This document shows, in pieces, positions 578-20,199 of a stretch of DNA of 31,895 nt. The number at the start of each line of letters is the position of its first letter. The stretch's first letter is position 1. The notes beneath the pieces were generated by a model. That model searched no databases. It saw nothing but the letters and a program-made list of their open reading frames with translations, and had not been told where the DNA came from. The position numbers and the translations under genes are program-made. Source of the DNA: a virus; the IMG/VR virus record IMGVR_UViG_3300026519_000474, positions 1 to 31,895 of that record. One strand, given 5' to 3'.

Positions 578-981
578 GCGACATCCTCCCACGCTGTTTC
601 GCCGCCGCGCTGGCGGCAGATGGCACACAATCGCATCCCTTCCCGCACCGCGCGGGCTGGCAGCTTCTTGCCGCAGCTCATGCAGTGCTGGCGGCGCTCC
701 TGCCGGCGCTGGCGCACCTGCTCCACATTTTCGCTGACCTGCTCCAGCAGCGCCTCGGTGTGGCGGCAGGTCTCGCAGCGCAATGTCCCCAGCACCTCCG
801 GCTCCAGGTCATCGCCGCAGCGTCCGCACTGTGGCGTCAGCGGCTTCGGCTTCGGCGGCGGCGGAGGGGATTGCACCAGCGCCCGGCAGGCGCGGGGCGA
901 AATCCCCAGCACCCGCGCCAGCTTCTTCGGGCGGCGGCGCAGGTTGCGCAGGCGACGTGCTGTCAGCAGCGGGCGCATCAT
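574..981 (-). CDS. Double zinc-ribbon protein
   Basis: A 135-residue protein with two four-cysteine sites: C52/C55 with C69/C72, and C100/C103 with C119/C122. The ribbons are separated by a predicted helix of about 25 residues and preceded by a basic helical N-terminus and a Pro-rich linker. The second ribbon (CMSCGKKLP...CAICRQR) resembles zinc ribbons of small phage regulators and of the DksA/TraR type, though the family is not certain. RBS GGAGGG precedes the start, which overlaps the stop of the GapR-like gene. A DNA- or RNA-polymerase-binding role is inference. Confidence 0.6.
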
Positions 982-1352
982 GCCGTCCCTCCGGTGCTGG
1001 CGCTTGCCTCTGCCCGCTCACCATCCTCCGGCAGGCGGATGGTGATTTTCGGGTTGCCGTCCGCGTCGTGGGAGACGCGCACGTCGCGCTCCGCCGCCCA
1101 GCGCTCCAGCGGCGTCATGCCGAGCGCCTGCATGTAGAGGTCGAGCAGGGCCTGCTCCTCCTCGCGCTCCTGCTGATCCTGCTTGCGCAAGGCGATGACC
1201 TTGCGCATCACCTTGGTGTTGAACCCCAGCGCCTTGGCCTCGGAATAGACCTGCTTGATGTCCTCGGCGATGGCGGCCTTCTCCTCTTCCAGCCGCTCGA
1301 TGCGCTCGACAAATGAGCGGATCGTCTCCCTGACGATTACCTCACCGCTCAT
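978..1352 (-). CDS. GapR-like nucleoid-associated protein (DUF2312)
   Basis: A 124-residue protein whose first about 80 residues closely follow GapR/DUF2312: [19 protein letters not shown], then [14 protein letters not shown], then [16 protein letters not shown]. In Caulobacter, GapR binds AT-rich, overtwisted DNA ahead of replication forks and helps gyrase. The extra C-terminal about 45 residues are acidic and Ala-rich and go beyond the core domain. GapR is essentially an alphaproteobacterial family, so this is the best single host clue. A GGAGGTGGGAGC RBS supports the start. The phage copy could compact or untwist its own DNA, or interfere with host replication. Confidence 0.85.
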
Positions 1353-3387: not shown

Positions 3388-3416
3388 GCAGGCCGCTGCC
3401 CCGCGGCCTGCTTTTT
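3388..3416 (+). terminator. Rho-independent terminator, plus strand
   Basis: GCAGGCCGC (3388-3396), a 6-base loop, GCGGCCTGC (3403-3411), then TTTTT (3412-3416). The T-run is on the plus strand only. It therefore ends a rightward transcript from the 3079-3387 stretch, although all recognised neighbours here run leftward. It also insulates the immunity region from rightward transcription. Confidence 0.75.
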
Positions 3417-3519
3417 GCGCCGTGCGCTCGCGGGCTGATGACTGCCGGCCACCGGCGACAGCAGGAGGAGGCGAGGGGGCGGGCACTGGCGTGGGCAAGG
3501 AAAAGCGGCGCGGCGCGAC

Positions 3520-3723
3520 TCATGACCTCACCTCCTCTTGCCGGAGGTAGAAATCATCGGGCCGCACCGCGCCGCCGGTGATCTCGACAATGCGGCGCAT
3601 CACGTCAGGCCGCGGCACGCGCCCGCGCAGATAATTGCGCACCGCCGGCTCGGTAACCCCGAGCAAGCGCGCAAACTCCGCCACCGTCAGCCCATGCAAT
3701 TCCATGTATTTCGAAAGCTGCAT
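3520..3723 (-). CDS. Cro-like HTH repressor
   Basis: A 67-residue XRE-type DNA-binding protein. The helix-turn-helix lies at about residues 14-38 (TVAEFARLLGVTEPAVRNYL), with a short C-terminal segment. It diverges from the CI-like repressor, is the first gene of leftward transcription, and overlaps the shared operator region, the classical place of Cro. The -10 element ends about 7-8 bases before the ATG, so its mRNA is probably leaderless or nearly so; no Shine-Dalgarno is visible. It probably acts at the 19-bp dyad to shut off the repressor promoter. Confidence 0.75.
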   Translation of the reverse strand: MQLSKYMELHGLTVAEFARLLGVTEPAVRNYLRGRVPRPDVMRRIVEITGGAVRPDDFYLRQEEVRS

Positions 3724-3730
3724 GCCTCAT

Positions 3731-3759
3731 GACAAAACATATTGTTTTGTTCGTGTCAA
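3731..3759 (-). promoter_or_regulatory. Leftward early promoter (for the Cro-like gene)
   Basis: On the minus strand a perfect -35, TTGACA (plus positions 3754-3759), is followed after 16-17 bases by a weak -10 (TTTTGT or TTTGTC, about 3731-3737). The 19-bp operator lies over the spacer and -10, so repressor binding would block RNA polymerase. The predicted start is within 1-3 bases of the Cro ATG at 3723. Confidence 0.55.
3732..3750. promoter_or_regulatory. Operator 1, immunity region
   Basis: ACAAAACATATTGTTTTGT is a perfect inverted repeat with 8-bp arms and a 3-bp centre, placed between the divergent Cro-like and CI-like genes. The identical arms recur at 5610-5628. It is an AT-rich island in a GC-rich genome, as expected for a repressor site. 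The likely ligand is the CI-like repressor encoded beside it, and possibly the Cro-like protein. Confidence 0.75.
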
Positions 3760-3815
3760 GGGAGCCACCGAATTGTTCGTTTTCTGCCTTCTCAAGGCGC
3801 ATTACGCATGGAGAC

Positions 3816-4427
3816 ATGCGCAAGGAGATTGGCGAAAACCTCAGGCGACTGCGAAAACAGGCCGGCATTTCCGCCGCCGCGCTGGCGGAGGCTGTCGGCA
3901 CATCGGATCAGCAGATTTATCACCTGGAGCATGGCCGCCGGACGTTGACGCGCGATTGGGCGGAGAGGCTGGCTCCACACCTGCGCGCATCGCCGGTAGA
4001 GCTGTTGTTCCCAGAGCTGCAAAAACCGCCGGCAGTAAGCATTCCCATTTTCGGCTACGCCGGTGCGCGCGAGGCGGTGGACGTGCTGGAGGATGGTCAG
4101 CACACGGCCATCGACCATCTGCAATTGCCGTCGGTGGCGGACGGCTATGCCGCCGTCATCGTGCGCGGCGAATCCATGCGCCCGGTCTACAATCCCGGCG
4201 ACATCCTGCTGTTCCGCCCGCCCAGCGTCCGCCCCTGGCCGCTGGAGCAGGTGCTGGGGCGCGACTGCGTGGTGGTAACCGAGCAGGGCCGTGCTTACGT
4301 CAAACGCCTGCGCCGTGGCCGCGAGGCCGGCGTCGTCGATCTCATCAGCTACAATCCGGCGGTGGAGCCGATCTATGACGTGCGCCTGCGCTGGGCGGCA
4401 CCGGTGGAATGGGTGCGCAGGGGCTGA
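3816..4427 (+). CDS. CI-like repressor with S24/LexA autoprotease domain
   Basis: A 203-residue prophage repressor. An XRE helix-turn-helix fills residues about 4-55 (ENLRRLRKQAGISAAALAEA, then GTSDQQIYHLEHGRR). The C-terminal S24 domain has the catalytic Ser at 120 (RGESMRPVYNPGD), Lys at 163 (RAYVKRLRR), and a plausible Ala-Gly cleavage bond at 82-83 (GYAGAR). RecA-stimulated self-cleavage, and hence SOS induction, follows from family knowledge. The ATG at 3816 starts directly at the HTH; the in-frame ATG at 3729 would run through the operator. Its GGAG is only 2 bases from the ATG, so initiation signals are poor, as for other CI genes. It ends 4 bp from the convergent membrane gene. Confidence 0.85.
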   Translation: MRKEIGENLRRLRKQAGISAAALAEAVGTSDQQIYHLEHGRRTLTRDWAERLAPHLRASPVELLFPELQKPPAVSIPIFGYAGAREAVDVLEDGQHTAIDHLQLPSVADGYAAVIVRGESMRPVYNPGDILLFRPPSVRPWPLEQVLGRDCVVVTEQGRAYVKRLRRGREAGVVDLISYNPAVEPIYDVRLRWAAPVEWVRRG

Positions 4428-4436
4428 TTGATCAGC
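4423..4436. repeat. Short dyad between convergent stops
   Basis: GCTGATTGATCAGC: 6-bp arms around TG, spanning the stop codons of the repressor and the convergent membrane gene. There is no T-run on either side. It could be a weak bidirectional transcription barrier or nothing. Confidence 0.3.
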
Positions 4437-5226
4437 GCTGCCGCCAGATTTTCAGCTGCACATCGGAGCTGTCCGGGCAGATGCAGAGCGGATAGAAGCG
4501 GATGCCGGCTGAGCGCATGAAGAAGGGCTTGCCGCTGCGCAGCACCGCCACGCCATTGCCGGCAATCGCCCCGTTCTCCAGCGCCGCGGCGGGTGGAAAA
4601 ATGACGTCCAGCCATTTCTGCATCATGAACAGGAATGGCTCCAGCCCGTATTTGCGGGCGCGGATGGGGTTTTTCTCCACCACCACGTAAAGCGCCTGCG
4701 GCTCATGCGCCTGCGTGCGGGCGATCAGCCGCCAGTAGTATTCCTCTGCTGGCCGCGGGCCATCCAGCATTTTCTCGTGCTGCGGCGGGGTGCGTGGCAG
4801 GCGCACGGCCACCGTGCCAGCACCGGTTTCCTTGTCCACTTCCAGCGAGACCTTGCCGCCTATAGCGGAGAGTTCCTGCCGGGCGCGCCGCGCCAGTGCC
4901 GCAAGGTCTATCCAGTATTGGCCTGCCGCCGCTTTTGCTTGCTGCGCCGGTGCCCCCCTCTTGTCTGCCGCGGGCGCGGAAGAGGTGGCTGCGGCGGCTG
5001 GCTGCGCAGGCTGTGCAGCCGGGGCAGGCGGTGGAGCTTCGGCCTGCTCGCCGCCCAGCAACACCGCCACCAGCGGGCCGATAATCACCGCCAGCAGCAG
5101 GCTGCCCAGCGCCTTTGCGGCCGGGGCCAGGATGCGCTTCTCCGAGAAAATGGAGATGAGATGTCCCAGCGCCGCCAGCACGAAAATGCCGCTGATCGCG
5201 ATGCCGACCCAGTCAGCCCAGTCCAT
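4432..5226 (-). CDS. Membrane-anchored protein with Ala/Pro linker, possible conversion gene
   Basis: A 264-residue protein with two N-terminal membrane segments (about residues 8-27 and 38-58), then a low-complexity Ala/Pro/Gln linker (about 60-100) and a C-terminal domain of about 160 residues that should lie on one face of the membrane. The C-terminal domain contains YYWRLIARTQAHEPQALYVV and FPPAAALENGAIAGNGVAVL; no family is recognised. It lies on the minus strand inside the immunity/integration region, beside a secreted protein, a position typical of genes expressed by the lysogen. Superinfection exclusion or another surface change is a guess from context. Confidence 0.6.
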   Translation of the reverse strand: MDWADWVGIAISGIFVLAALGHLISIFSEKRILAPAAKALGSLLLAVIIGPLVAVLLGGEQAEAPPPAPAAQPAQPAAAATSSAPAADKRGAPAQQAKAAAGQYWIDLAALARRARQELSAIGGKVSLEVDKETGAGTVAVRLPRTPPQHEKMLDGPRPAEEYYWRLIARTQAHEPQALYVVVEKNPIRARKYGLEPFLFMMQKWLDVIFPPAAALENGAIAGNGVAVLRSGKPFFMRSAGIRFYPLCICPDSSDVQLKIWRQR

Positions 5227-5229
5227 CGC

Positions 5230-5508
5230 TCACCCCCGCCGCTTGCATGGCCGCGAGCAGACGTTCTCGCACGGGATGCCGTCCTTGTCCCTGTCCAGCT
5301 TTGAAAGCCCGCATTTCAGGAAGTAGTAGCAAGCCTCCCGGCAGTTGCGCATCTGCTTGCAGTAGCGCTTCTTGCCGCACTGCTGCGTCAGCAGTGGGCG
5401 GCTGGCGCTCCAGCCAGGGGTGGCAGAAGAGAATGCCTTTTTCGCCGCCGCTGGCAGTGGCGTGGCGACAATGGCGACGATGGCCGCGGTCAGCAGAAGC
5501 CTTTTCAT
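5230..5508 (-). CDS. Secreted Excalibur-domain protein
   Basis: A 92-residue protein. Residues 1-22 are a signal peptide (MKRLLLTAAIVAIVATPLP, AAA cleavage region). The C-terminus contains LDRDKDGIPCENVC, the Excalibur calcium-binding motif (DxDxDGxxCE) usually found in extracellular proteins. Several more Cys (QQCGKKRYCKQMRNCREACY) suggest disulfides. The ATG at 5508 was chosen because the signal peptide starts there and AAGGGGGGATCC precedes it. It ends 3 bp before the membrane gene, so the two probably form one operon. Confidence 0.7.
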   Translation of the reverse strand: MKRLLLTAAIVAIVATPLPAAAKKAFSSATPGWSASRPLLTQQCGKKRYCKQMRNCREACYYFLKCGLSKLDRDKDGIPCENVCSRPCKRRG

Positions 5509-5577
5509 GGATCCCCCCTTCTCTTCAGCGGCCTCCCAGTAGTTGCATGGTGGCAAACACCTCTTTTTTTCGGAAAG

Positions 5578-5590
5578 AAACAATTTGTTT
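5578..5590. repeat. Small A/T-rich dyad upstream of operator 2
   Basis: AAACAATTTGTTT: 6-bp arms around one T, about 20 bp upstream of operator 2. It resembles a diverged half-strength version of the ACAAAACA dyad and could be an auxiliary repressor site. Confidence 0.3.
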
Positions 5591-5600
5591 AATTTTTCGG

Positions 5601-5630
5601 TTGACAATGACAAAACAGATTGTTTTGTAT
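5601..5630 (+). promoter_or_regulatory. Repressor-controlled promoter of the DnaA-like/integrase operon
   Basis: A perfect -35, TTGACA (5601-5606), an 18-bp spacer and a weak -10, TTGTAT (5625-5630). Operator 2 fills the spacer and overlaps the -10. The sequence from the operator to the RBS AAGGGAGCC is largely shared with the CI/Cro intergenic region, pointing to duplication of a promoter-operator unit. The first gene starts at 5655, 8 bases after AGGGAG. Confidence 0.65.
5610..5628. promoter_or_regulatory. Operator 2
   Basis: ACAAAACAGATTGTTTTGT, with the same 8-bp arms as operator 1 (3732-3750) and a different 3-bp centre (GAT in place of TAT). It should place the 5655-7828 operon under the same repressor as the lytic promoter. 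A 10-bp perfect palindrome, TGTTCGAACA, follows at 5631-5640. Confidence 0.75.
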
Positions 5631-5654
5631 TGTTCGAACAAGGGAGCCCTGCTC

Positions 5655-5912
5655 ATGACAATAATCACCCCACTTCCCACCGCCCGCCGGGCGGCGGAGA
5701 ATGACCTGAAGGTGCTGGTGCGCGCCACCCAGCGCCTGCAGGCGGAGGCCGAGGCGCTGCTGCAGCGCGAGCGTGCCGGCATCCACGCCGGCCCGGAGGC
5801 GCTGCAGCGGCTGGAGAACGAGGCGCGCATGCTGCGCCTCCTCATCGCCCATGCGCGGCGGCGGCTGGCCGACATGCCGCGCATGCCGGCCACCATCCGG
5901 AGGGCCGGCTGA
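5655..5912 (+). CDS. Small coiled-coil protein, first gene of the repressed operon
   Basis: An 85-residue, Arg/Glu/Leu-rich protein expected to form one long helical hairpin (residues about 10-40 and 50-75: NDLKVLVRATQRLQAEAEAL and RLENEARMLRLLIAHARRRL). No family recognised. The start at 5655 follows AAGGGAGCCCTGCTC; the stop overlaps the next ATG (TGATG), so it is translationally coupled to the DnaA-like gene and may be its partner. Confidence 0.65.
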   Translation: MTIITPLPTARRAAENDLKVLVRATQRLQAEAEALLQRERAGIHAGPEALQRLENEARMLRLLIAHARRRLADMPRMPATIRRAG

Positions 5913-6394
5913 TGCGCGGGCGCGAGGTTATCCGCCGCGTGGCCGCCATCGCCGGCGTGCCGGTGGCCGAGCTGCTGGGGCGCAGCCGCCGGCGCGAGGT
6001 GGTGCGCGCGCGGCAGGTGGCCATGTGGCTCATCGCCACCGGCCTCGGCTACACCGCCTCGCTCACAGGGCGGCTGCTGCAGCGCGATCACTCCACCGTG
6101 CTGCACGCCATCCGCTGCGTGCGCCAGGCACTGGCCTGCCCGCAGGATGCGCACCAGCGCCAGCTGGCCGCGCTGGCGCTGAAGTGCCACCACCGCCTGG
6201 AGGGAATGCTGGTGGAGGACAGGGCAGGGTGGCCCGAGCCGGTGGAGGCCGTCATCATTGCCCGCCTGAACAGGGCGGCATTGCCGCAACATCTCGCTGC
6301 CCAGCGCGCCGCCAATCGCCGCCGCTGGCAGCAGGCAACAGAGCGTCTGCGCGCGCGGGAGCGCCGCAGCATTCGCTGGGAGGATGTGCGATGA
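5912..6394 (+). CDS. DnaA domain IV-like DNA-binding protein
   Basis: A 160-residue protein whose first about 75 residues look like the C-terminal DnaA-box-binding domain of DnaA: a helical start (REVIRRVAAIAGVPVAELLG), a basic RSRRREVVRARQVAMWL segment, then the signature RDHSTVLHAIRCV. The AAA+ ATPase domain is absent, so it can bind DnaA-box-like DNA but not remodel it. The rest is helical and basic. Such stand-alone proteins could compete with host DnaA, regulate replication, or help a phage origin. It is coupled to both neighbours by overlapping stop and start codons. Confidence 0.75.
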   Translation: MRGREVIRRVAAIAGVPVAELLGRSRRREVVRARQVAMWLIATGLGYTASLTGRLLQRDHSTVLHAIRCVRQALACPQDAHQRQLAALALKCHHRLEGMLVEDRAGWPEPVEAVIIARLNRAALPQHLAAQRAANRRRWQQATERLRARERRSIRWEDVR

Positions 6395-6579
6395 ATCCTT
6401 GGCCGCTTCTCATCGCCAGCATCATCGCCGGCCTACACTTTTGGGGGGAGGTCAACGCCAGAATGGCAGGTGAATACAGTCCATCGATGCAGCCATTCAC
6501 TACCACAGACTTCTGGCTGGGCCTCACCTTGCTGATGCTGGCGATCTATGCCGCCGCGGCGAATGGAGGTAGCAGATGA
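6391..6579 (+). CDS. Small membrane protein
   Basis: A 62-residue protein with an N-terminal hydrophobic segment (about residues 3-18) and a stronger C-terminal one (about 42-57, FWLGLTLLMLAIYAAAA). The start overlaps the DnaA-like stop (ATGA); the stop overlaps the next ATG. No family recognised. Its position between a DNA-binding protein and the excisionase gives no clear functional hint. Confidence 0.6.
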   Translation: MNPWPLLIASIIAGLHFWGEVNARMAGEYSPSMQPFTTTDFWLGLTLLMLAIYAAAANGGSR

Positions 6580-6989
6580 CCACCGCGGGTGCCACATCCA
6601 CGCAACTGCCGGCGTGGGCGGTGGAGCCGCTGACGCTGGAGCAGGCGGCGCGGGTGCTGGGGGTATCTCGCCGCACGCTGGTTGATTTCCTGCGCCGCCA
6701 CCCGCATTATGAGAGGCGGGGCCGGCGCAAATTGTTCTATCCGGAGCACATCGAGGCGCTGAGGGCGGCATGGCGGGAGGAGGCAGAGAGGCAGGCAGGC
6801 TCAAGCTCGTGCGCCGCGGGCGCATCTGGTATGCCGTCGGCAGCATTGCCGGGCGACGCGTTCGAAAGAGCCTTGGCACTGGCGACCGGCGCCGCGCCGT
6901 CGAGCTCGCCGCGCAGCTCGAGGCGCGGCTCTGGGAGGAGCGCATCTACGGCGATGCCGCCGTCCGCACCTTCGAGGAGGCGGCGGTGA
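6576..6989 (+). CDS. Excisionase-like HTH protein
   Basis: The first about 75 residues form a winged-helix/MerR-type domain (LTLEQAARVLGVSRRTLVDF, then the wing YERRGRRKLFYPEH) as in excisionases and helix_turn_helix_17 proteins. A GGAGGTAGCAG RBS supports the start. From codon 65 on, the frame overlaps the integrase gene for 220 bp and becomes Ser/Ala/Arg low complexity, so the functional part is probably the N-terminal domain only. As an excisionase it would bind attP arms and direct excision; the position directly before int supports this. Confidence 0.6.
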   Translation: MTTAGATSTQLPAWAVEPLTLEQAARVLGVSRRTLVDFLRRHPHYERRGRRKLFYPEHIEALRAAWREEAERQAGSSSCAAGASGMPSAALPGDAFERALALATGAAPSSSPRSSRRGSGRSASTAMPPSAPSRRRR

Positions 6990-7828
6990 GCTACCTGGAG
7001 GCCGGCGGTGAGGGCCGCTTCCTGCCGCCGCTGCTGCAGTATTTTCGCGGCAGGCCGCTGGCCGAGATACAGCCCGGCGATGTCATCAAGGCGGCCATCG
7101 AGCTGTATCCCACCGCCAGCGCCGCGACGCGCAATCGCCAGGTCATCACGCCGGCCCGCGCGGTCATCAATCATGCCGCCGAGCTGGGCTGGTGCGCACC
7201 CATCCGCGTCAAGCGATTCCGCGAGCGCAAACCACAGCGGGTGGCGGTGGATCGCCGCTGGATCGACCGCTTCATGGCCGCGGCGATGCAGCCGGGCGGG
7301 CGGCGGGTGCCGAAGCCGCACCTGGCGGCGCTGGCGCTGTTCATGTTCACGACCGGCGCGCGCATCAGCGAGGCGGTGGCGCTGACGTGGGATGATGTCG
7401 ACCTGCCCGCCCGCCGCGCCCGCATCACCATGAGCAAAACGGGCGGCGAGGTGCGCGAGGCGGTGCTGACGCAGGAGATGGTGGCGCTGCTGATGCGCCT
7501 GCCGCGCCAGCACGGCGGGCGGGTGTTCGGCTACGCCAGCCGCCATGCGGTCATGAGTGCCTGGCGCAGCACCTGCGCGGTGGCCGGCATCGAATACGTG
7601 CCGCCACACCAGGCGGGGCGGCACTCATTTGCCACCGCCCTCAATGCCGCTGGCATCGACCCGAAGACGGCGATGGAGGCCGGCGGCTGGAAATCCGCCC
7701 GTCTGTATCTGGAGCGCTATGTGCACGGCGATGACGCCGCCGACCGCATCGCCCAGGTATTCGAGCGCGACGCCGATGATACCCCTCAAACCGATAATGT
7801 CTTCCCGTTGTTGCGAGGAGAGGGGTAG
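6770..7828 (+). CDS. int: Tyrosine-recombinase integrase
   Basis: A 352-residue phage integrase. The N-terminal arm/core-binding part (residues about 10-160) begins LKLVRRGRIWYAVGS. The catalytic domain shows Arg198 (TTGARISEA), Lys223 (MSKTGG), H280/R284/H285 (PHQAGRHSFAT), Trp307 in the place of the usual second His, and the nucleophile Tyr317 (LERYVH). In the His box one residue separates this protein from the usual HxxR spacing. It recombines attP with the tRNA-Ser attB. The start ATG follows GAGGGCGGC. Unusually, a toxin-antitoxin pair separates it from the attachment core 1 kb downstream. Confidence 0.9.
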   Translation: MAGGGREAGRLKLVRRGRIWYAVGSIAGRRVRKSLGTGDRRRAVELAAQLEARLWEERIYGDAAVRTFEEAAVSYLEAGGEGRFLPPLLQYFRGRPLAEIQPGDVIKAAIELYPTASAATRNRQVITPARAVINHAAELGWCAPIRVKRFRERKPQRVAVDRRWIDRFMAAAMQPGGRRVPKPHLAALALFMFTTGARISEAVALTWDDVDLPARRARITMSKTGGEVREAVLTQEMVALLMRLPRQHGGRVFGYASRHAVMSAWRSTCAVAGIEYVPPHQAGRHSFATALNAAGIDPKTAMEAGGWKSARLYLERYVHGDDAADRIAQVFERDADDTPQTDNVFPLLRGEG

Positions 7829-7846
7829 GAGATGACTTAGGGGGCA

Positions 7847-7878
7847 TGTTGCTCTATAAATGAGCATATGAGGCAACA
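7847..7878 (+). promoter_or_regulatory. Nested dyads and candidate promoter of the first Panacea module
   Basis: TGCTC-TATAAAT-GAGCA (7850-7866) brackets a TATAAA -10-like element with 5-bp inverted arms. An outer pair, TGTTGC (7847-7852) and GCAACA (7873-7878), encloses it. The arrangement suits autoregulation of a toxin-antitoxin operon. The RBS GGAG follows at about 7881. The -35 is not clear. Confidence 0.45.
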
Positions 7879-7892
7879 GTGGAGCATCTGCC

Positions 7893-8447
7893 ATGGCGCA
7901 GCGCAATGATGACCGTTTGGAGTATATGATACTGTTTTTTGCGGCAAAGGCTCCAGATGGCAAAACAAAGATGGCAAAATATCTGTGGGAAGCTGATGTG
8001 GAAGCGTTCCGCAGGTTTGGGCGCAGTCTATCTGGGCGAGATCTCTATCTGCGCTTAGAGCACGGCCCTGTGCCACAAAATTTTGATAAGGCCTTGGCCA
8101 AGCTGCGCGAGGAAGGGCTCCTTGCGCGAGAATTCCTTGACAAATATGGGTATCGTGAAGAGCGCCATCACCTTGCTGATGATGCAGCGGTAGATTTTTC
8201 TGTCTTCAGCCCAGAGGAGGTGGACGTCCTGCATACTGCCATCGTTCGGCTGCAGGATTTATCTGCCAGGCAGGCAAGTGAGCGCACTCATGATGCCTAT
8301 TGGGAGGAGCTGGCGCTTGGCGGGCGGATGTTTGTTTCAGCTGGCGCAGTGGTAGAGGGGGAGGTTACCGAAGAAGCTCTTGCATGGGCTGAATCTGTGC
8401 GCAAAGAGATCATAGAAGAAGAAGCTTCCTTGCAAGAAATCGAATGA
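7893..8447 (+). CDS. Panacea-domain (SocA/DUF4065-like) antitoxin, module 1
   Basis: A 184-residue protein. Residues about 10-90 match the Panacea/DUF4065 pattern: KTKMAKYLWEADVEAFRRFG, then LYLRLEHGPVPQNFDKAL and AKLREEGLLA. Panacea proteins are promiscuous antitoxins that directly neutralise diverse toxins encoded next to them. The C-terminal half (ending VTEEALAWAESVRKEIIEEE) is acidic and may add specificity. The gene is visibly richer in A/T than the integrase before it, a sign of separate acquisition. GGAG sits 8 bases before the ATG. It is followed after 8 bp by a small gene, the presumed toxin. Confidence 0.75.
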   Translation: MAQRNDDRLEYMILFFAAKAPDGKTKMAKYLWEADVEAFRRFGRSLSGRDLYLRLEHGPVPQNFDKALAKLREEGLLAREFLDKYGYREERHHLADDAAVDFSVFSPEEVDVLHTAIVRLQDLSARQASERTHDAYWEELALGGRMFVSAGAVVEGEVTEEALAWAESVRKEIIEEEASLQEIE

Positions 8448-8455
8448 GATAAAAA

Positions 8456-8773
8456 ATGCAGATTGCGAAACCAGCAGGGGGGTTCCATGTCCAATGCCGC
8501 CCACAAGCCAGTGATATGGCGGCACGCCTTTGCAATGGGAATCCTTCCCTTGAGGCCTATAAAGATGGCATAATAAAGCGTTTGCGTGAAGCGGGTCATA
8601 TGATGGGCAAGGCTTTAGACTGGCAAGAGCTTCCTGGGGCAAGGATTTTTATTGCAGATAATCCTCCAGGGTTGCCCGTTGGCGCGCAAATATGGATCAT
8701 CTATCGCACACTGGGAGATACACTCACGTTCCACCGCATACAGGTCAGCAATGGTCTTCAAGCAGTTAACTAA
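8456..8773 (+). CDS. Presumed toxin partner of Panacea module 1
   Basis: A 105-residue protein of no firmly recognised family. A helical first half (SLEAYKDGIIKRLREAGHMM) is followed by predicted strands (ARIFIADNPP, AQIWIIYRTLGDTLTFHRIQV). This helix-then-sheet order and the YR-D-R pattern loosely resemble RelE/ParE-type toxins; that is inference. It has no membrane segment, unlike the partner in module 2. The ATG has little Shine-Dalgarno and lies 8 bp after the antitoxin stop, consistent with coupling and lower toxin output. A/T-rich relative to phage genes. Confidence 0.55.
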   Translation: MQIAKPAGGFHVQCRPQASDMAARLCNGNPSLEAYKDGIIKRLREAGHMMGKALDWQELPGARIFIADNPPGLPVGAQIWIIYRTLGDTLTFHRIQVSNGLQAVN

Positions 8774-8850
8774 ATTGCCGCATCTACGACACAGCAAGTG
8801 GAAATACCGCTGCATCTATCTGACTTGTTTGGTGAAATTTTATTCCCATT

Positions 8851-8916
8851 CTCCCCTGCTAAGGGAGTAGGCGGGCAGACCCCGCCTCGAGGGTTCGAAT
8901 CCCTTCCTCTCCGCCA
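8851..8916 (+). other. attP: Attachment site: 3' part of tRNA-Ser(GCU)
   Basis: 66 bp that read as the 3' two-thirds of a serine tRNA: anticodon arm CTCCC-CTGCTAA-GGGAG (anticodon GCT), a long variable arm of 7 bp (AGGCGGG/CCCGCCT), a T arm with GGTTCGAATCC, the acceptor 3' strand CCTCTCC, discriminator G and CCA. The matching 5' strand (GGAGAGG) and a D arm are absent from the bases upstream, so it is not a functional tRNA. Phages that integrate into a tRNA gene carry exactly such a 3' fragment in attP to restore the gene. Its place 1 kb after int and before the lysis genes fits. The rest of 8774-9073 is noncoding and may hold integrase arm sites. Confidence 0.85.
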
Positions 8917-17343: not shown

Positions 17344-18105
17344 TCACACCGCCAAGCTGCGTTGCGTGGTCTCTATCAGGATTTCGTCCGGCACCCTCTC
17401 GCGCAGGTATTCAAGCCCCTTCGGCGTTACGTAGGTGCGGGGTCGCGCCTTGTCGTCCACGATGGTGCTCTTCACCTCGAAGATGCCCATCTGGATGTAA
17501 CGCACCCGCGCCACGAGGTTGCCGCCCTGGTAGAAGAGGTATTTCGACTTCAGCCACTGGATGAACTTGTTCGGCTTCGCGCCGATGGCCCGCGCCGCGT
17601 TCTGCAGGCCATACAGCCCGTCGGCGTTCAGGAACTGCTCGTAGAAGCTCACCTTGGGTGCGTCTTCCTCGATCTTCGCCTCCAGCTTCAGCACCCGCTC
17701 GGTGTAGTTCAGCAGCAGGCCGCGCAGCGCGGCAGGGTCATCCAGCGCTGGCGGCTGGTTCTGCATCTGGCGCAGCCGCCGTTCGCATTCGATGAAATAT
17801 TTCCGCGCCTGCCGGCCCCGCTCGTTGCGCTCCACCATGGCCAGCTCCTTGGCCATGTCCAGCGTGATGTAGTATTCCTTGGCAGGGCGGCCACCCTTGG
17901 GGTTTTTCCCAATTTCGGGAAAAACCTCTTGGAGCACTACGAAGTCATGCCCCTCAACAAACCCATAAGCTTCGATGCGCTCCTTGATCCAGTCGGCAAA
18001 CTTTTTCCCGACCTGCAGAAACGCATGCAGCTCGCGGGCATTCACCGTCTCCACCGGATCGCCACCGAAGTCCACCTGGTGCAGTGCAATCAGCTCTTTC
18101 ATCAT
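17344..18105 (-). CDS. Phage antirepressor, AntA + KilAC domains
   Basis: A 253-residue protein. Residues about 18-110 form an AntA/AntB domain (VNARELHAFLQVGKKFADWI, YITLDMAKELAMVERNERG, ARKYFIECERRL). Residues about 145-245 are the KilAC/ANT domain (FLNADGLYGLQNAARAIGAK, YVTPKGLEYLRERV). Such antirepressors inactivate phage repressors and favour induction. Normally they sit in early or immunity regions; here the gene is in the tail operon between the tape measure and E', beside an XRE regulator. The start 18105 follows GGGGGGCAGG; a second ATG follows immediately. Confidence 0.85.
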   Translation of the reverse strand: MMKELIALHQVDFGGDPVETVNARELHAFLQVGKKFADWIKERIEAYGFVEGHDFVVLQEVFPEIGKNPKGGRPAKEYYITLDMAKELAMVERNERGRQARKYFIECERRLRQMQNQPPALDDPAALRGLLLNYTERVLKLEAKIEEDAPKVSFYEQFLNADGLYGLQNAARAIGAKPNKFIQWLKSKYLFYQGGNLVARVRYIQMGIFEVKSTIVDDKARPRTYVTPKGLEYLRERVPDEILIETTQRSLAV

Positions 18106-18118
18106 CCTGCCCCCCTGT

Positions 18119-18379
18119 TCAAGCCTCGTCCTGCGCCTGCCGCAGCGCCTTCTTCGCCGCGGCGATGTCCATGAAGATGCGCTCCAGCAGCGGCGGGATC
18201 GCCGCGTAGCTGGCCTCCCGGTGCATGTCGTCGGCAGCGCACAGCACGCCACCGGCGCGGGCCAGCAGCAGGCAGTCCTCCAGCTTGTCCAGCGCCGTGG
18301 CGATGCGCTCTTGCGCCGCGCCAGGCCGCGGGGAAGGATTGTCGATCCTGTTCAGATGGGCTACTGATACATCAGCCAT
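18119..18379 (-). CDS. Small helical protein upstream of the antirepressor
   Basis: An 86-residue protein, helical and mildly acidic, with a central LDKLEDCLLLARAGGVLCAA segment and a C-terminal AAAKKALRQAQDEA. No family recognised. It shares an operon with the antirepressor (13 bp apart) and diverges from the XRE gene across an operator-like dyad, so it is probably under XRE control. GGAG lies 9 bases before the ATG. Confidence 0.55.
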   Translation of the reverse strand: MADVSVAHLNRIDNPSPRPGAAQERIATALDKLEDCLLLARAGGVLCAADDMHREASYAAIPPLLERIFMDIAAAKKALRQAQDEA

Positions 18380-18412: not shown

Positions 18413-18453
18413 GGCCCAACGTTGGTGCTCCTACACCGCGTTGGGCCGCTTTT
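18413..18453 (+). terminator. Hairpin with T-run upstream of the XRE gene
   Basis: GGCCCAACG (18413-18421) and CGTTGGGCC (18439-18447) are exact inverted arms around 17 bases, followed by GCTTTT. It resembles a plus-strand terminator, but no plus-strand gene precedes it closely. It may block readthrough into the XRE promoter or be an operator. Confidence 0.35.
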
Positions 18454-18455
18454 CG

Positions 18456-18484
18456 TTGCTTCCAACGGTAAGATTTTCTATCAT
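18456..18484 (+). promoter_or_regulatory. Promoter of the XRE gene
   Basis: TTGCTT (18456-18461), a 17-bp spacer and TATCAT (18479-18484). The predicted start near 18491 lies after the ATG at 18483 and just before the ATG at 18498, so the second ATG is preferred, with a leader of about 7 bases. Confidence 0.5.
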
Positions 18485-18497
18485 GTCGTCAGATTTT

Positions 18498-18758
18498 ATG
18501 TCAATAAGAAATTTGAGGGCTGACGACGTGCTCACCCCTGCACAGTGTCGCGCGGGACGCGGCCTCATCGACATGCAGCAAACTGCTCTTGCCGATAAGG
18601 CAGGCGTTTCTCCCAAGCTCATCATTGATTTTGAGCGAGGCAAGAGAAATCCTCGGATGGAAAGCCTCCTCCGCCTGCGCGAAGCGCTGGAGGAAGCCGG
18701 TGTCGAGTTCATCCCTGCCGATGAGGCCGGCGGCCCCGGCGTGCGCCTGAAAAAATGA
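18498..18758 (+). CDS. XRE-family transcriptional regulator
   Basis: An 86-residue protein: LTPAQCRAGRGLIDMQQTAL (helices 1-2), ADKAGVSPKLIIDFERGKRN (recognition helix), then LREALEEAGVEFIPADE and a GGPGVRLKK end. This form is very common in Alphaproteobacteria as a small stand-alone regulator. The last 25 bp of coding sequence before the stop are repeated exactly 586 bp downstream, after the next gene. It probably controls the divergent antirepressor operon and perhaps the following WYL-like gene. Confidence 0.8.
   Translation: MSIRNLRADDVLTPAQCRAGRGLIDMQQTALADKAGVSPKLIIDFERGKRNPRMESLLRLREALEEAGVEFIPADEAGGPGVRLKK
18727..18751 (+). repeat. 25-bp direct repeat, copy 1 (3' end of the XRE gene)
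   Basis: Identical to 19313-19337. It encodes the GGPGVRLK end of the XRE protein here. Both copies are also preceded by ATGAGG a few bases upstream. The pair brackets the WYL-like gene. Confidence 0.85.
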
Positions 18759-19728: not shown

Positions 19729-20199
19729 TTATGCTTTCCCCTTCTCCGTGTTGCGCTCCGCGTTGCGCGCCTGCCACTCTTCCCGCATGTCTTCCGTGGT
19801 GATCTTGATGCCATGCGCACCGGGAACATAGCGCTTGTGCCACGCCCCCTTGCACCAGTGCGTGTTCTGCACCAGCTCCCCAGGCGACTTGTCTTTCAGG
19901 ACCTGCCACACCTTGCGCAGCATGTCGGCTTCGGGGCTGTCCTCATCCAGGTCGTCCGCAAACAGGAAGGCCGCCTCCGTGATCGGCTTGCTGCCCCGGT
20001 ATTTGCACATGTGGTAGACGGAAGGCAGCACGGGGCCATAATCCCATGCTTCGAAGTCCTCACTCACCAAGCGCTCGCCCTTTGTGCCTGTATAGGCCAT
20101 GTCGGCCAGATACAGCAGCTTCTGTAGCTTCAGGTTCGAGAGCGTATAGCCACTCAATTTCGCCAGATATTTGGCAGCGGCATCAGGCTTGATGGTCAT
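19729..20199 (-). CDS. Panacea-domain (SocA/GepA-like) antitoxin, module 2
   Basis: A 156-residue protein with the Panacea/DUF4065 pattern: LSNLKLQKLLYLADMAYTGT, then VSEDFEAWDYGPVLPSVYHM and KYRGSKPITEAAF. The C-terminal part (WCKGAWHKRYVPGAHGIKIT) is also typical of this family. It belongs to the GepA-like branch and differs clearly from the module 1 antitoxin. GGAGGAGATCGCC gives a strong RBS, so antitoxin should exceed toxin. The upstream gap (20200-20294) is A/T-rich and has small dyads (CCCTTTGCAAGGG; AACATGGGTGTT) that may serve autoregulation. Confidence 0.8.
   Translation of the reverse strand: MTIKPDAAAKYLAKLSGYTLSNLKLQKLLYLADMAYTGTKGERLVSEDFEAWDYGPVLPSVYHMCKYRGSKPITEAAFLFADDLDEDSPEADMLRKVWQVLKDKSPGELVQNTHWCKGAWHKRYVPGAHGIKITTEDMREEWQARNAERNTEKGKA

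Follow-up and report, generated by a model that had tools for sequence, protein, structure and literature searches.

Known two-operator switches

In the immunity region of phage lambda (NC_001416), cro, OR, cI and some other genes are followed by OL and the operon that contains xis and int, and cI and int are on the same strand. Among phages of alphaproteobacteria, the nearest described counterpart is Rhizobium phage 16-3 (DQ500118), where the C repressor is flanked by PL and PR and the operators are annotated as OL1/OL2 and OR1/OR2. OL1 and OL2 stand on either side of the PL -35 box, with OL2 in the spacer, OR1 and OR2 are at PR, and the overlapping xis and int lie downstream of PL. According to passages of one study of this phage, no regulator other than the C repressor is known to interact with PL and PR, and PR functions in Methylobacterium (PMC3694467). 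We noticed that the annotated PR -35 box of the 16-3 record (L143:36513-36518) reads GACTCA and that a TTGACG is found about 4 nt upstream; the annotated box may be shifted.

Here we analyse a locus of this layout in an uncultured phage. The window corresponds to an entire IMG/VR virus record (31,895 bases), and the features of the locus are collected in Table 1. From its sequence, we predict that two identical dyads serve as OR and OL in an immunity module of the lambda type, i.e. that one CI-like repressor acts on both promoters, and we give this reading a probability of roughly 0.85.

Table 1. Features of the immunity and integration region, and dyads of the comparison loci.
Feature	Positions	Strand	Remarks
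Cro-like HTH protein, 67 aa	3520..3723	-	HTH_3 E 7e-9, phrog_35
Perfect 19-nt dyad ACAAAACA-TAT-TGTTTTGT	3732..3750		Right-operator candidate, spacer of cro promoter
TTGACA, -35 candidate of cro promoter (PR)	3754..3759	-	3 nt from perfect dyad
CAAGGGAGCC	3757..3766	+	Same 10-mer as second site; no identified gene start after
Weak dyad-like 19-mer, 10 of 16	3767..3785	-	35 nt upstream of perfect dyad, cro direction
CI-like repressor, 203 aa	3816..4427	+	HTH_31 + Peptidase_S24, phrog_4
264 aa protein, no known family	4432..5226	-	No Pfam/PHROGs match; between the two candidate operators
Small Excalibur-domain protein	5230..5508	-	PF05901 E 8e-10; between the two candidate operators
Weak dyad AAGAAACA-ATT-TGTTTAAT, 12 of 16	5575..5593	+	35 nt upstream of perfect dyad, int direction
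TTGACA, -35 candidate of int-operon promoter	5601..5606	+	3 nt from perfect dyad
Perfect 19-nt dyad ACAAAACA-GAT-TGTTTTGT	5610..5628		Left-operator candidate, spacer of int-operon promoter
CAAGGGAGCC	5639..5648	+	Includes ribosome-binding site 5641-5646 of gene starting 5655
85 aa protein, first operon gene	5655..5912	+	No match in Pfam or PHROGs
160 aa protein, DnaA DNA-binding domain only	5912..6394	+	PF08299 E 1e-16
62 aa ORF, overlaps both neighbours	6391..6579	+	No Pfam match
Small HTH protein, 137 aa, excisionase candidate	6576..6989	+	Weak HTH_17 E 1e-5, phrog_66 E 0.007
Tyrosine integrase, 352 aa	6770..7828	+	PF00589 E 4e-21, phrog_1
Pyei1 dyads	12138, 12163 (cro/CI) and 10069, 10098 (head of int block)		Strict rule
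ctOK67 dyads	24923 (before CI) and 26591 (head of int block)		Strict rule
L036 dyads	6668 and 3330		Strict rule

Gene organisation of the locus

The gene identities given in the initial annotation stand. The matches to HTH plus Peptidase_S24, HTH_3, Bac_DnaA_C and Phage_integrase are strong, while the excisionase call is weak and concerns a small HTH protein overlapping int. The CI-like protein combines an HTH with a C-terminal S24 domain, as in CI-type repressors. We located S120 and K163, which we take to be the expected S24 catalytic residues, and A82-G83, a candidate self-cleavage site. Both genes between the dyads run leftward, against CI.

The second promoter heads a tightly packed, overlapping series of rightward genes (5655-7828) that includes the integrase and, on a weak match, the excisionase candidate. 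The first gene of this left operon (5655) occupies the place of N in lambda and has no match in Pfam or PHROGs. The excisionase candidate and the integrase share 220 nt, read in different frames, much as xis and int of 16-3 overlap by a similar length (31673-31898), and the candidate stays beside int in the relatives L003-L009.

Several other genes of the record are worth describing. Directly after the integrase there is a Panacea antitoxin gene (7893-8447, plus strand), one of two different SocA-like Panacea antitoxin genes in this one phage (the other at 19729-20199, minus strand); the neighbouring ORF at 8456-8773 has no Pfam match and could be the toxin. The lytic operon encodes a GapR-like DNA-binding protein (978-1352, minus strand; PF10073 E 7e-33). 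An AntA/KilAC antirepressor is encoded among the tail genes (17344-18129, minus strand), so DNA damage may not be the only trigger that releases the promoters; Paracoccus phage Pyei1 has an annotated KilAC gene (34767-35591) at a comparable position. Close to the antirepressor, in the structural region, lies a further HTH_3 regulator gene (18441-18758, plus strand). The integrase is joined to the far end of the structural genes inside the record (7829-8860) and the lytic operon runs off its left end. Hence, the record resembles a cut-open circular or excised form of the phage, not a host-flanked prophage. The window contains no tRNA from which an att site could be proposed.

Two identical dyads at two promoters

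The motif ACAAAACA-NNN-TGTTTTGT is present twice without mismatch and with perfect 8-nt arms, at 3732-3750 between cro and CI and at 5610-5628 ahead of the integrase operon, exactly where the initial annotation had placed it. There is thus a candidate operator between cI and the divergent cro-like gene, and the same sequence stands beyond cI at the other promoter, with 1878 bp between the centres of the two dyads. The initial annotation had suggested looking for more copies across the genome, and the search returned no third site at 3 or fewer mismatches in the whole 31,895-base record. Only these two 19-mers match all 16 of the 16 fixed positions; the best remaining one, at 5575-5593, matches 12, and 14 further 19-mers, of which some overlap the perfect dyads themselves, score 10 or 11.

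Could such a pair arise by chance, as AT-rich palindromes or as RNA hairpins? GC-rich dyad pairs are common in this GC-rich record (1093 of 5000 random windows have one at a total mismatch of 2 or less), which speaks for this explanation. However, none of 100 dinucleotide shuffles contained two matches (mean of 0.02 matches at 3 or fewer mismatches), the 3732/5610 pair is the only one in the record with a GC content of 50% or less, and both of its members are at promoters. Chance is therefore extremely improbable. In 3400-5800, the one terminator-like match (3863-3879) lies away from the dyads, and we rejected the reading of the dyads as a terminator or hairpin.

Two other repeats were observed in the same regions. 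A 12-nt perfect palindrome, TTGTTCGAACAA, directly follows the second dyad (5630-5641), and TTGTTCGT occurs twice in the cro/CI region, 26 nt apart (3747 and 3773). The palindrome or the repeated sequence may be the site of a further regulator.

The dyads are arranged in the same way relative to the promoter elements of each site. The initial annotation had put the second dyad inside a TTGACA promoter of the 5655-7828 operon, and indeed this box (5601-5606) stands 3 nt before the 5610 dyad. It had not mentioned the equivalent box of the first site, a TTGACA on the minus strand at 3759-3754. There are only seven exact TTGACA in the record (five on the plus strand and two on the minus strand), and none of 200,000 random placements brought one within 0-6 nt of both dyads. 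Upstream of each box we found a weaker dyad, and the resulting order is mirrored between the sites. Towards cro, on the minus strand, a weak dyad (3785-3767) is followed after 7 nt by the TTGACA and after 3 nt more by the perfect dyad (3750-3732); towards int, on the plus strand, the weak dyad at 5575-5593 is followed by the box and the perfect dyad at the same distances of 7 nt and 3 nt. In the direction of transcription, the weak dyad begins exactly 35 nt ahead of the perfect one at both sites. The best sum of weak-dyad scores at a same offset (22) was reached in 1 of 5000 flank shuffles, and the score of 12 in the flank of the second site alone in 246 of 5000. As candidate second operators of each side, the weak dyads match poorly (10 and 12 of 16).

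The -10 boxes are less clear. Scanning 3400-5800 for sigma-70 promoters gave no site with an acceptable -10, the best candidates (TTTTGT/TTTGTA) being poor matches. The perfect dyads sit 3 nt past TTGACA and may overlap promoter elements. The start codon of cro (3723) coincides with the position where transcription from PR is predicted to begin (about 3724), and for this reason cro may be leaderless.

A rival reading concerns which protein uses the dyads. The Cro-like protein likewise has an HTH domain and is encoded beside one of them, and it could be their main user: made after induction, it would lower its own promoter and that of the int operon, while CI would act at other DNA. This requires another site for CI, but the cro/CI intergenic region contains no other dyad of comparable quality, and we find this scenario unlikely. 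In lambda, Cro and CI share operators. It is likely that both CI and Cro share the sites here, which is compatible with two operators under one repressor.

Origin of the second site

The initial annotation had concluded that a promoter-operator unit was copied, with similar bases continuing beyond the dyad up to the ribosome-binding site. Our alignments give a different picture of what the sites have in common. When both are taken on the plus strand, the alignment spans 42 columns with a score of 44, and the largest score among 2000 shuffles was 30. When they are aligned in the direction of transcription (minus against plus), the score is 29, which was reached in 2 of 2000 shuffles. Part of the likeness lies in CAAGGGAGCC, present at 3757-3766 and 5639-5648 with a 4-nt shift of register relative to the dyads; the downstream flank with this 10-mer is weaker when taken alone (11 of 5000 shuffles reach its score). 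The -35 boxes of the two promoters are on opposite sides of their dyads. These comparisons suggest that a dyad-bearing block was probably copied in direct orientation, and they imply that the wording of a copied promoter-operator unit is only partly right: the block made of the dyad and the 10-mer does align directly, but the promoters face opposite ways, so that in terms of transcription only the dyad and the geometry are common. Similarly, the bases beyond the dyad are shared, with the 4-nt shift, but a ribosome-binding site is found at 5641-5646 only, and no identified gene start follows 3757-3766.

A copied block raises the question of whether the 5610 dyad is but a leftover from duplication of the operator beside cro, with the int promoter in practice not under CI. 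The direct-orientation alignment takes in a 10-mer that has no evident role at 3757, and the -10 is poor; both speak for a relic. Yet, both arms of this dyad are perfect, its -35 box is at the matching distance, the mirrored weak dyad is present, and other phages show the layout with sequences of their own. We thus judge it quite improbable that the second site is a mere remnant, and retain the reading in which CI would act on both.

Search for the layout in other phages

We found no close relatives of CI in viral_contigs or genome_contigs, and consequently the co-variation of dyad and repressor within one lineage could not be followed. The DnaA-domain protein gave no relatives in viral_contigs, and no DNA similarity to 3400-7900 was found in the phage collection. 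Three exact matches to the operator pattern in viral_contigs were treated as chance, none being in a related locus. Integrase relatives are plentiful. The DNA around the closest of these (L003-L015, L053-L058) shows no Cro match and CI-profile matches that are weak at most, which makes these loci of no use for a comparison of operators.

A CI-profile match was present in 8 of the 23 loci that were scanned; L036, L041, L016 and L038 entered the dyad comparison, and L011, L058, L009 and L057 were left out. Seven phage genomes were also compared, hand-picked from the top of 45 CI-match records and hence not a random sample. We applied a strict rule (7-nt arms, at most one mismatch per dyad and at most two between dyads) to 11 other CI-type loci. 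In three of the 11 (Pyei1, ctOK67 and L036), a dyad of their own, different from the one described here, is present at cro/CI and again before int or an int-bearing block. A shared dyad pair was absent from seven of the 11 under this rule; L141, outside the 11, had none either. Two further pairs were not counted: that of L038, the remaining one of the 11, whose dyads are 250 bp apart and away from int, and that of L140, which is near a divergent gene pair in a locus where we did not identify the repressor. The rule found no pair in lambda, a known positive; it is therefore insensitive and its negatives say little.

When the focal copies were excluded, equally long windows drawn at random contained such a pair in 268 of 5000 draws for Pyei1, 50 of 5000 for ctOK67 and 0 of 5000 for L036. 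In Pyei1 and ctOK67, each of the two promoters has a TTGAC box whose end lies 0-7 nt ahead of the dyad, and L036 has no TTGAC box before its int-side dyad. The dyad varies between phages yet matches within each of them, which is what one would expect of a site that follows the repressor of its own phage. The literature searched contained no description of operators for Pyei1, ctOK67 or L036, an absence that is weak evidence; the Pyei1 report describes CI and Cro in its lysogeny section, and the word 'operator' was not found when its main text was searched (PMC6536676).

Predicted working of the switch

The two candidate operators are singled out by being the only perfect dyads, by the TTGACA 3 nt before each in opposite directions and by the matching weak dyads at an offset of 35 nt. 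Their assignment to one repressor further draws on the gene calls, the overlapping gene series at 5655-7828, the three of 11 loci with a repeated dyad of their own and the OL/OR operators of 16-3. The proposal in the initial annotation that one repressor serves two promoters, the second belonging to the operon with the DnaA-domain, excisionase and integrase genes, is thereby supported by anatomy and comparison, as a prediction.

The switch could work as follows. A dimer of the CI-like repressor (3816-4427) would bind the dyad in the spacer of the leftward cro promoter (PR), and the same repressor would bind the identical second copy of this dyad, within the spacer of the rightward, PL-like promoter of the int operon. 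Each perfect dyad would be helped, perhaps cooperatively, by the weaker operator 35 bp upstream, beyond the -35 box. In the lysogen, both promoters would be shut by CI. Its inactivation, through S24 self-cleavage upon DNA damage or through the phage's own antirepressor, would turn on the lytic genes together with the operon of the DnaA-domain protein, excisionase and integrase. After infection, before CI accumulates, the same int-operon promoter would supply the integrase. One may speculate that the DnaA-domain-only protein takes part in excision or in the start of replication at induction, in which case a single repressor would couple escape from the chromosome to the onset of replication, and that the operator groups also loop through CI across the 1878 bp, enclosing two genes expressed in the lysogen; we regard this extension as rather doubtful.

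This locus provides a clean predicted pair of left and right operators in an uncultured phage. The simple rule behind it, i.e. that a dyad at cro/CI is repeated where the integrase-bearing genes begin, found the layout in three other phages or contigs, and can aid the prediction of immunity groups and of the genes that are silent in the lysogen.

Comparison with known systems

Among the loci with a repeated dyad, Pyei1 (vB_PyeM_Pyei1, MK291445) resembles the present one in having an S24-type CI, two operator candidates at cro/CI and two at the head of a leftward gene block that ends in int. It differs in its dyad, ATGGGGGAnTTCCCCCAT, and in that many genes, over about 9 kb, separate int from the left operator candidate. 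The best match to CI in the phage collection (37.5%) comes from phage ctOK67 (MW202613), where, as here, genes on the minus strand separate CI from the left operator candidate. Its dyads have another sequence (CGCTACATTTGTAGCG before CI and CGATACAGTTGTAGCG where the rightward int block starts), a RelE-type toxin-antitoxin pair lies between them, and its DnaA-domain gene is on the lytic side.

The described switches differ from ours in several respects. Lambda has three 17-nt operators per side and N as first gene of the PL operon, and its rexAB genes read in the direction of cI, whereas both genes between the dyads read against CI here. The operators of 16-3 are shorter (12-14 nt) and of the ACAA/TTGT types, its C repressor has little similarity to CI (43% over 37 aa), and its operator groups are 841 bp apart instead of 1878 bp, with only c (and an ORF inside c) between them, whereas here there are two further genes. 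The known workings of such switches are unchanged by this case: the layout is the classical lambda-style arrangement in one more phage, well formed and ordinary in kind.
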